The translations under genes were made by a program, and so were the position numbers. DNA of 64,000 bases from Ashinkailepas kermadecensis (lineage: Eukaryota > Arthropoda > Thecostraca > Neolepadidae). Where the stretch lies: contig JAOTOM010005100.1 of the NCBI GenBank assembly GCA_034440615.1, positions 847,501 to 911,500 on the forward strand. Direction: 5' to 3'. Positions 36,101 through 57,100 of the stretch are shown here, piece by piece (position 1 is the stretch's first letter; each line of letters opens with the position of its first letter). The notes beneath the pieces are model-generated. The model was not told the origin of the DNA, did not search any database, and saw only the letters and a list, made by a program, of their open reading frames with translations.

Positions 36101-39100
36101 TTTCTTTAACAAGTTACTAAGTTATTAATTCAGCTTTAAGCTTCTTGTATGATCAAGGGCCAGTTATATGCCTGCTTTTGTTCCCACTCTTTAGCATTAT
36201 GTGGTTATATGATCAACATGGTCGATGCGCCCTAAAACCCAAATAACTAACTAGCATTATATCTCGTACGTTGTATTTGCTTAATATTGGGTGCTGATTT
36301 ACGCTGATATCTATTTGTCTTCATCTTTTAGCGGAGAGTGCCTTTACTGGAAAAATGTGCCTCTCTTATAATGGTGCTCCACCGGTTCACTTTCAGTAAG
36401 AATTGGTGCTCTACAAAGGAATATCTCATTGTGAAAGCTTCTCGTTACTGACCATGGGTTATTTTTTACCTGGAAGTGCCTGCGTGGGATTATGCTATTT
36501 TGTTTGAGAGGGTGGACGGGCAAGACATTTGGAACTTTCCGGCCAAATCACTGAACATCGTACGCTGCATATATAAAGCTCCCGAAAGGTGAGCTGGATG
36601 GCAAGGTTTCTGAATGTGAGCGAGATGACGAAGGTATGGTCCTCAGCACATTCGCAATGTCCCTACACCTACACGCGAGTACGAAAGAGGAAACTCATCG
36701 GATGAGAATGATGAAAGATCCCGAGGAATTATTACGGTGACAAATATATCCCACTTCTCCGACATTCAGCGACTCACACCACAGTATGGACACGCGATTC
36801 AATCTGGGCGTTTATGTCATAACCGTGTGTATTGCGTAACTGGCAATCCAAACATTGATTGTCTAAGCATTCGGTAGCTATTGGACAAAATCTGCGTCTG
36901 GCGCCGTAGCTATTTTGTTACGTGACCTCACTTTTGACCACGGGTGAAGGGTGTTGTGTTACAGGTATTGTATCTACAACGTCACATCTGCAATACCAAC
37001 TTTATCCTATTTTGCATCACTTATTCCACTGAGCACCAAGTTCAGAATTTGCAACAGCAATTGCACTGGTAATCTTCAGCCTCTGCTTGCAATATCATTC
37101 ATTTCCCAAACAGACACTCAGGATCTCCGTCACAGAAAAAAAAAGTTCAGGCCAGAGCGTTGTGAGGTTTATTCGGGGATTGTAGCGTCCATATATGTAA
37201 AAATGGATATTAAAAAATATTCCCCCGGCCGCCCCCCCCCCCCCCCCCCCCCAAAAAAAAAACAAGTAATAATAATTAATCGAAAATGTGTGTAGTTAAA
37301 AAATTATACGGTTGCATTCCCCTTTGACCCCAGGATGATAAATTATAACCGTCTAGGTTATCTAACTTCCATTGCCAATTGGAACAATCATATATGTCTG
37401 GAAATTTGGTATCGGGAAGGCAAATTACTGCTCTTATATATTATTGCCGACTGTCAGAATGTATAGCTACTGACATATTACTGCTTCTGATATAAGTATT
37501 ATATAATAATATTGACTCAAAGCAGTTGAAAACATGGGTCTGAAATCTACATGATTGTCAACATTGGGAATCAACTGGTCCCAAAAGGCAAGTTCCCGAT
37601 CTTGCCGGCTCATTTTCGCACAACATTGAGGACTTTTTTGAGTCCTCAGTGAAAGAAGTCGTGAAGTTGTTCGTATCTGAGTGTATGGTGTGGTAAGTCC
37701 GTTTGTAGTAATCGTTCGACCTGTTCAAAGTTATTCAGCTATTTTAGTTAGAAATCCATCCCGGGTAAAATTTAGTATCTTAATTAGCGTGAGTAAATAT
37801 TTAAGTAGGTCTTGGGCGGAAGGGCGTTGGTGCGTTGTGATTTGAGTAAAGTACGGTATTGACGCGTGGGTGGGAACGTTTCCTTCAATGTTCTTCCCAT
37901 GTGTAATATGCTCGGTATAAGTCTATATTGCCAACGGTATTCGATGAGGACTTCTCAGAAATACGTTCTTGGCGATGTTGGGTCGTCCAAGATCATTCCG
38001 CCATCCGAAGTTATGTTGTTGCGATATTGTCGCACATTCTGATGACAACTTACATTTTCAGATGTTTACTATCTCGTGGTTTTGTCAAACTGGGCAAGTG
38101 GTTCGCGCAGCCATGCGCCAGCGTCGACAAGCTTCAAAGCAAAGCCAACAGGTACCAACCACCGACAATTGGAGAACGCATTGGTGCCGCATGCCGATGT
38201 TTCATGGCGAATAATGCCGATGATGGAACTGCCGGATATGTTAGATGATAATGTACATGCTGTCATCAGTGCGTTTACGTTGACATGACTTATTTTATAG
38301 CGTGCATTTTATGCATGCATGCATGCATGCACACATGATGACTCATTTGGCTAGAATGCCTCTGTTTTTATGTTAAAAGGTATGCTTATGGCAGCCCCTT
38401 CCATGCTACTTCAACCACAGAAAAGCAAGAGAAGGCAATACAGTGTGACTGGTGTGCCAGCGGTGCAACGTACAGCGATACGGCGCTGTTGGTGTAGCCG
38501 GAGCGTGTGATGTACAGTGATACCGCGTTGTTCGTGTAGCCAGAGCGTGTTGTATCATGGAGCCACCACAGGCCGTAACTGACTGTGTGCTGGTCGGTTG
38601 CAGCTCCAACCTGTCGTTCTCGTTCTCCTTCTTCGTGCACGGCGAGAGCACGGTGTGCGCCAGCCTGTCGTTGCGGCAGCACGCACCGCTGCGGCGCATC
38701 ACGCGCGCCCACCTGTCGGCCGCGCACGGCCACGGCGCCGGGCTGGCCGTGCTGCTGGCGCCGTACGGCCTGGCCGGTGTGCTCACCGGGCACACCTACC
38801 GGCTGAGCGCGCCGCACACCCGCAAACTGGTGGAGGCCTGGCGCCACTTCTACCCCATCGAGAACCGGCTGCTGGCCAGTCTGCAGACGGGTCGCGAGCC
38901 GCACATCCCCGTGGTGGTGGAAGTGTTGGTCGGTGAGTGGTACGGTCACGGTCGGTGGCAGACGGGTCGCGAAATGCACGTCCCGTGGTGGTCGGTGAGT
39001 GGTGCGGTCACGGCCGGTGGCAGACGGGTCGCGAGCCACACGTCCCCGTGTTGGTCGGTGGGTGGTGCGGTCACGGTCGGTGGCAGACGGGTCGCAAGCT

Positions 39101-54100: not shown

Positions 54101-57100
54101 AACAAAACCCGGCATTTTGCACGTCACGAGATGTGGCAAGAGTCGAAAAGTTTCAAGTTCAATTGTTACCTGATGAAAACAGTAGCAGATATGCACTTAA
54201 AATTCTCAATATTGTGGTGTTCCTCCGTATCTTGGGATACCAACCATGTGCGACTTGCTGAGTTTCGGCCTATACGTTTGGGGTCAGATGGGGTAATATT
54301 ATTGACCTCATTTTATATAAATATACCAGAAGCCACTGTTTTGTCTGAGGAGTAAAGTTAGACCCAATATTAAGTTTTAGCGTCCAAATGCACCCCAGAG
54401 TGGCTCCTCACCCGAAAAAAAAACGCCACCTGTCAAGCTAAGTCATGACGTAGAATGGCCTTGGGAAGGTCCATGACCTATATATATAGGTTAGCTGAGT
54501 TGTTCATCACCCTACCATATCCATCATTGGTGATTTAGGAACAATAAGGAAGATTAATCGCAAATATATGGCGATTCGGCGTAAAGCCATGTTCCTTTTT
54601 GTCGCGTCATAGGTCAGTGACCTGACAAGACGTCTTCAAATTTGTCATATCATAAAGTCTGCAAAGGAGGCTCCATCAGCTATGCCAAGGTGCAACGCCC
54701 TGACCCACGCTGATTTTTCGTAGTCTCCAAGAACCTTTCGTGGGGAGGGGGTAGCAACTTTCGTGCGCGGTCTGGGGTTAAAATTAACCACTATGAACGC
54801 GAACGAACGCACGAAGCGCGATACGGAATCGAATTAGCACACAATTAACATCACTGTGTCGTGGTATTAGTTACGTTGATGAACAGCACTGTCTTGTCCA
54901 TTATCACTCTTTTCCCTGACCTTTGTCCCGCACCTTCCACCTACCCTTACCCTTGTCCTTGCTTTCCATTTCCCCTATTCTTGATGCGGTCTGTTGAGTC
55001 AGCTCGAAATGGCTGCAGTACTCTATATTGCAACCTTCTAGTATTGCCCGTCGTTCAGCCGACTCCTCTACTGGCACTCATTCTGTGGAATAAAATGTAT
55101 CATGGGCTACGTGGTATGTTGGTAATTTATATCTAATTACATTGTCTGTAGGAGGACTGAAGAAAAATTGAGTTTTGCCCACTTTGCACATGGTTTTAAG
55201 TGTTAGCCGTTTTCAACCAGCGGATGGCCAACAGCTTCAACCCGCTAATCCATGGTTACCAGCCGTATGCAATTGTTCTGTTCGGTGCCACTGTGCATAT
55301 GTGTGGCTGTTCGAGTGCTGCCCACGAGGCGCCGTTGTAGCAGTAACACAGACACTACTGCGGTGTCTGGCAGGTGATCTCGCTGGAGAGCATCCTGTCG
55401 CTGTGGCGTGACCTGGACCGGGCACAGCTGCGACAGCGGCTCCGCTCGCTCGCCTTCACCGTCTACTCGCAGTGCAAGCGCACCTTCTCCGGCATCACCT
55501 CGGCGAACTCGCTCACCGGCTTCGGTCCATCTGCCTCGGCAGAGCAGCGACTCAAGGGACGCGAGGTGAGCACTGGCCGACTCGGCAGCGGCTCAAGGGG
55601 CGCGAGGTGAGCACTGGCCGACTCGGCAGCGGCTCAAGGGGCGCGAGGTGAGCACTGGCCGACTCGGCAGCGGCCCAAGGGGTGCGAGGTGAGCACTGGC
55701 CGATATCGGCAGGGGCGCGAGGTGAGCACTGGCCGACTCAGCAGCGGCTCAAGGGGTGCGAGGTGAGCACTGGCCGACGGCAGCGGCCCAAGGGGCGTGA
55801 GGTGAGCACTGGCCGACTCGGCAGCGGCCGACGGGAGGTCGACGGTAGCTAGCTGCGCGGTGACTGTCCAGGAGAATGTCGGTTCTAACGTATCCCGTTC
55901 CTGACCGTGTGTGTTTGCTTAGTATGGCGGTGGTAGTGCACATTCCCTTGAAACTAAGTTGTGGTGCTCGCTATCCTGTGACCACTGGATTGGTTTGGCG
56001 TCACACCGACGTCATGTGCACAGTGTGCGGCGTCACACCGACGTTATGTGCAGTGTGTGGCGTCACACCGACGTCATGTGCACAGTGTGCGGCGTCACAT
56101 CGACGTCATGTGAACAGTGTGCGGCGTCACACCGACGTCATGTGAACAGTGTGCGGCGTCACACCGACGTCATGTGCACAGTGTGCGGCGTCACACCGAC
56201 GTCATGTGAACAATGTGCGGCGTCACACCGACGTCATATGAACAGTGTGTGGCGTCACACCGACGTCATGTGAACAGTGTGCGGCGTCACACCGACGTCA
56301 TGTGCAGTGTGTGGCGTCACACCGACGTCATGTGCACAGTGTGTGGCGTCACACCGACGTCATGTGCACAGTGTGGGGCGTCACACCGACGTTATGTGAA
56401 CAGTGTGTGGCGTCACACCGACGTCATGGTGTGTGGCGTCACACCGACGTCATGTGCACAGTGTGGCGTCACACCGACGTTATGTGAACAGTGTGTGGCG
56501 TCACACCGACGTCATGTGCAGTGTGTGGCGTCACACCGACGTTATGTGAACAGTGTGTGGCGTCACACCGACGTCATGTGAACAGTGTGCAGTGTTCACC
56601 GACGCCACTCGCAGAGGCCGACTCACAACAAAAAATGCTGGCCCGGGTGGTGTTGATGTGGTAGACTGGCGCCGCGGCCACAGCCGTGCCGGCTGACGCC
56701 TGTCGCGGCCGGCCACGTCTGACGGTACTGTCGCCCGCCGCCACCAGGATCAGGTGACGACGCTCCAGATGTACAACCCGACGTTCGTGCTGGCGCCGCT
56801 GCCGGACGCGCAGAAGGAGTCCGAGGTGATGTCGTCGCCGCGCGACACCACCTCCACGCTGTTCTGCAGCTACTGTCTGTCGGAGGACCAGCGCTGGCTG
56901 CTGGCCGCCTGCACCGACGAGCGCGGCGAGATGCGGCGCACCACCGTCATCAACATCCACATCCCCAACCGACTGCGTCGGCGCAAGGTGTCGGCCCGCC
57001 GGATAGGGCTGCAGAAGCTGATGGACTGGCTGCTGCAGATCATGGTGCAGAGTGTCCATCCCTGGCGTCTGGTGGTCGGTCGGCTCGGCCGCATCGGCCA

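Follow-up and report, generated by a model that had tools for sequence, protein, structure and literature searches.

The MED13 gene

The stretch of Ashinkailepas kermadecensis DNA that was analysed (64 kb in length and referred to here as the window) carries a MED13 homologue on the plus strand, spanning 21.1-60.7 kb. MED13 chains in the PDB match exon 10 (E 3.8e-42), exon 5/6 (E 1.1e-22) and stretches of exons 11-16 (E 5e-120), and Pfam Med13_C is matched with E 1e-17; the score for Pfam Med13_N (19.8 bits) falls under its cut-off of 26 bits. Exons 5-18 were placed on the basis of splice signals, phase and homology and, when joined, these 14 exons (with 13 introns) give one uninterrupted reading frame of 1899 codons. 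Exons 1-4, located via motifs, lie at ~21.1, 26.4, 33.0 and 38.1 kb. An intron count of 17, proposed in an earlier sequence-only reading of this DNA, is borne out, with 13 introns within exons 5-18 and exons 1-4 upstream. Pfam searches with seven of the 76 open frames in the window, plus exon 2, returned no family, leaving no second gene as a control.

Homology to the PDB MED13 chains runs ungapped over junctions 5/6 and 11/12, and over junction 14/15 with a one-residue gap beside the junction. The proposal that homology and phase always fix the true splice site stands at these three junctions. For the exon 10 acceptor the choice is decided by phase and stops only, and a second donor of exon 8 is excluded by neither homology nor phase.

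Repeats of other kinds were also noted. Two tRNA-Val-like sequences (22648-22723 and 59086-59161), with similar text near 26160-26300, are followed by tails that look similar by eye and resemble a tRNA-derived SINE family. Intron 3 contains a CT-rich, hexamer-type array of ~0.8 kb (33405-34199), roughly 300 bp past exon 3, and a near-identical phrase, cgatgcgccctaaa.cccaaataactaacta, was seen by eye in two introns (36220-36255 and 53210-53245) and may represent a dispersed-repeat tail.

Tandem arrays at exon edges

Self-BLAST of the whole window, blind to exons and with periods up to 700, identified 18 repeat clusters, eight of them within 38.6-60.7 kb. Six of these eight MED13 clusters touch exactly one exon edge each, namely the donors of exons 5, 6, 8 and 14 (D5, D6, D8 and D14) and the acceptors of exons 10 and 12 (A10 and A12), and each of the six holds one intron edge only. 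One of the remaining two falls within exon 6 and the other, near A13, is a TG/GTGC microsatellite. A separate 32-bp array at 55996-56589 is included in the D14 cluster. The principal features are as follows (positions are those of the window).

38604..38932, plus strand: MED13 exon 5, with the true donor at its 3' end (open frame; PDB MED13 alignment)
38884..39158, plus strand: D5 array, four copies of 62-75 bp (self-BLAST, shuffles)
40503..41114, plus strand: D6 array, 32-bp unit, in intron 6 and reaching the exon 6 donor (exon side unsupported)
43626..44058, plus strand: D8 array, ~55-bp unit in ~8 degenerate copies (delimited by hand), with the exon 8 donor
45599..46678, plus strand: A10 array, units of 53-80 bp, extending 7 nt into exon 10
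51334..51588, plus strand: A12 two-copy duplication of the acceptor region and the first 30 nt of exon 12
51704..51746, plus strand: GTGTGTCT microsatellite, beginning at the exon 12 donor
55544..55828, plus strand: D14 array, seven copies of a 41-bp unit
55996..56589, plus strand: intron 14 array, 19 copies of 32 bp, touching no exon edge (a counter-example)

Array units differ among the six edges, from 32 bp to ~145 bp. Copy 1 of the D5 array consists of a 49 nt exon tail plus the intron head, with copies 2 and 3 short by 12-13 bp, and the D14 unit consists of a 22 nt exon tail plus a 19 nt intron head, with the donor GAGgtgagc present in seven of seven copies. The A10 array contains a repeated acceptor, C[CT]TGCCCACAG, the copy at 45642 being without its AG. 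At A12, the two copies measure 110 bp and ~145 bp, and the upstream one has GTAG before TACTGC and an in-frame stop. The D6 and D8 copies are degenerate and the older ones are without a donor; the D6 units mostly read GATGAG, versus GGTGAG at the donor itself. The earlier proposal that the arrays carry the splice site is correct for D5, D14, A10 and part of D8, and does not hold for exon 6. A further short tandem array with a 19-bp unit was seen in intron 17 (60530-60574), ending 24 bp before the exon 18 acceptor.

Rather than starting exactly at the exon edge, as had been suggested, the arrays start inside the exon, by ~50 nt at D5, ~30 at A12, ~22 at D14, ~12 at D8 and ~7 at A10. The exon side aligns with the repeat over ~50 nt at D5, 30 nt at A12 and 22 nt at D14 (P<=0.001 against 1000 shuffles). 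For D8 and A10, support comes from a fixed-register test only, in which the best match among several copies was taken: at D8 the best copy agrees with the exon at 10 of 12 bases (a background of 1 in 16288 intron positions) and at A10 the nearest copy agrees at 7 of 7 (1 in 15716). Free local alignment at these two edges does not exceed shuffles on the exon side (P 0.46 and P 0.75, respectively). At D6 the exon side likewise fails to exceed shuffles (P 0.45), the edge as a whole gives P 0.09 and the intron head shows a weak match (P 0.007). Units containing both exon and intron sequence are thus found at D5, A12 and D14 by shuffles and at D8 and A10 by register only, but not at D6; all six clusters reach an exon edge, as the sequence-only reading had it, and the number of supported edge arrays falls to five once D6 is set aside.

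Over the 21 nt compared, the D14 exon tail departs from the consensus of its array at two sites only, both synonymous, whilst four of the six other copies contain amino-acid changes. The synonymous-only exon tail and the stop in the upstream A12 copy suggest that the exon is constrained and the copies are free to change. At D5 (AGACG) and D14 (GCAGCG), the last copy is followed by sequence similar to the beginning of copy 1; such end matches are not evident at D8 or A12, giving two of four edges, and A10 yields no information in this test. Copies have diverged (the best pieces are 74% identical at D5 and 82% at A12), which argues against a simple assembly duplication, although for the D14 array, which is uniform, the copy number may be in error.

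Array placement and border GC

Two array sets were used to compare placement with chance. From the self-BLAST clusters, removing the exon 6 cluster and splitting the D14 cluster gave eight arrays at E<=1e-2, and removing the microsatellite as well gave seven at E<=1e-4; these seven are the strong intronic arrays of MED13, six of which reach an exon edge. From TRF, hand-merging of 43 rows produced 22 arrays; the 38.1-60.7 kb stretch contains 13 of these, and removal of two arrays inside exon 6 left a test set of 11 in introns 4-17. The permutations covered introns 4-17, and for exons 1-4 neither TRF nor self-BLAST showed an array at any edge.

All placement statistics come from one hand-picked gene, chosen by eye. 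The six edge contacts among the seven BLAST arrays compare with 0.88 expected at random (P about 1e-4), and six contacts are likewise seen among the eight arrays of the wider set (P 1e-4). Scoring D6 and A10 as non-touching leaves four of seven (P 0.007, without GC matching). Four of the 11 TRF arrays touch an edge by their printed coordinates, against 1.13 expected (P 0.020), and three of nine once two microsatellites are removed (P 0.062). All 11 TRF arrays lie within 180 bp of an exon edge.

Intronic GC is highest beside exons, at 0.64 in the nearest 25 nt, and is down to 0.45 at distances above 700 nt; exons 5-18 have a mean GC of 0.69, with 0.48-0.58 measured for exons 1, 2 and 4 among the first four. 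TRF array density is 0.57/kb in the GC-rich 38.1-60.7 kb versus 0.19-0.31 in the three other stretches. Matching for GC raises the expected number of contacts from 0.68 to 2.5 of seven for BLAST arrays (seeds matched within 0.05; P for six or more 0.0027) and from 0.79 to 2.1 of 11 for TRF arrays, where the four contacts observed are no longer significant (P 0.12). Nearness to an edge in the TRF set (a mean of 56 bp versus 263) survives matching with P 0.0003. GC accounts for a large share of edge contact; what is left comes from this single gene, which was picked by eye. The suggestion that GC-rich edge sequence helped is probably right. The further suggestion of an edge bias beyond random placement holds, after GC matching, for BLAST contact and TRF nearness, and not for TRF contact.

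The GC-matched BLAST contacts (P 0.003 in round terms) and TRF nearness are what would be expected if exon-intron borders were tandem-duplication hot spots for reasons beyond GC, such as R-loops or polymerase stalling, with arrays truly nucleating there. We consider this unlikely: the gene was picked for its striking look, TRF contact has P 0.02 under random placement (P 0.06 without microsatellites) and P 0.12 under GC matching, the edges of exons 1-4 are without arrays and the large 32-bp array of intron 14 touches no edge at all. A lineage-wide version, in which borders would be preferred birthplaces of minisatellites throughout the genome, beyond what GC explains, and many genes would carry stacks of decoys that the spliceosome ignores through a positional rule, appears to us rather improbable.

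Origin, splice-site choice and relatives in other genes

We think it likely that the arrays arose by independent tandem duplications at GC-rich borders, grew as minisatellites and were tolerated as the outermost site still works. Each array would have started as a separate local duplication, some tens of bases long, spanning an exon border and aided by high border GC and, in two or more cases, by short direct matches of the exon tail to the intron head. Growth on the intron side would then have followed, through the slippage or unequal exchange usual for minisatellites. The exon body would stay joined to the outermost copy only, leaving the protein unchanged while that site is used, and duplications that failed to keep the outermost site usable would be lost. 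Birth of the repeats by local duplication at exon-intron borders, one of the suggestions of the sequence-only reading, is supported by these data. Against the origin that we favour are the BLAST edge excess (P 0.0027) and TRF nearness (P 0.0003) that GC matching leaves in place, the finding of end matches at only two of four edges and the failure of exon sharing at D8 and A10 in free alignment.

The frame consequences of using another copy can be read directly. Later donors lead to a stop at exon 5 (three of three), exon 14 (six of six) and exon 8 (two of three), as do the decoy acceptor of exon 12 and all 13 upstream acceptors of exon 10 that were matched by pattern. The exception is the second exon 8 donor at 43694 (43638-43694 in the window), which adds 57 nt, or 19 codons in frame with no stop, and whose 9-mer is identical to that of the real donor; this site may be used in splicing. 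As only the first donor copy or the last acceptor copy remains attached to the exon body, the outermost site should be the true one, and use of any inner copy would insert a unit into the message. Under exon definition, the spliceosome would favour the exon-proximal site. That the outermost site is always the true one, which had been presented as a striking regularity, is therefore no puzzle, but follows from the geometry of tandem duplication and the loss of frame from other copies.

The copied sites could instead have been kept for a function, for example in alternative splicing coupled to nonsense-mediated decay that tunes MED13 dosage. Intact sites are certainly plentiful, with seven of seven D14 donors and 14 A10 acceptors (pattern-selected, and including the real one), and the second exon 8 donor is intact with an open frame for 19 codons. 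Young, similar copies would, however, retain their sites without selection, the A10 copy at 45642 has lost its AG and older D8 and D6 copies have lost the donor. We regard retention for function as highly improbable. We give very little credence to chance combined with ascertainment, that is, to ordinary intronic minisatellites spotted in one gene among many. The finding was indeed picked by eye, the contacts at exons 6 and 10 share little or no exon sequence, their rescoring as non-touching weakens the BLAST result and GC-matched TRF contact is not significant, but the exon-derived units at D5, A12 and D14 cannot belong to arrays that merely drifted to an edge. An introner-like or other mobile element is rejected within the window, where none of seven arrays (the six edge arrays and the 32-bp intron 14 array) matches elsewhere in the 64 kb at E<=1e-3 and no array has related copies at other sites, so that the arrays look home-grown rather than derived from one mobile element.

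Repeats of this kind have relatives elsewhere. One is a minisatellite of human IFI6 that reportedly lies at an exon border. The IFI6 (6-16, G1P3) minisatellite (Turri et al. 1995) supplies multiple splice donors according to the accounts in PMC3618361 and PMC4526556, the latter stating that two downstream repeat units act as donors. Repeat copies carrying several donor sites are common to IFI6 and MED13. In IFI6, inner copies are used and three mRNA species result, whereas the MED13 inner copies are putative splice sites; acceptor-side arrays and several arrays per gene are features of MED13 that these accounts do not describe for IFI6.

Variable internal tandem repeats at exon-intron boundaries are reported in PMC2812944 for human genes in segmental duplications, where they alter splicing, with 27 intron modifications retained on inspection. 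These resemble the MED13 arrays in lying on the boundary but they vary among recent paralogues and may form new introns, whereas MED13 keeps its old edge. PMC4974935 describes a duplication over an intron-exon boundary that, as in MED13, copied splicing signals; there, the outcome was a new intron, whereas each MED13 array holds one intron edge. Tandem duplication and intron gain in Drosophila are the subject of PMC2891723. Literature searches returned no match on barnacle genomes, nor on duplicated splice sites with VNTR. The statement in the sequence-only reading that no known system behaves in this way is wrong, as published work describes human repeats at exon-intron boundaries that provide splice sites or influence them.

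Taken together, these results identify the MED13 arrays as real, dense for one gene and a known kind of repeat, their frequency being most likely due in the main to GC-rich borders and to selection tolerating the copies. At present, they provide a clear single-gene example of a known phenomenon. Were the excess to extend across the genome, exon borders would stand out as hot spots of duplication, and the near-identical splice sites competing within such natural arrays would offer a ready test of the importance of position in site choice.
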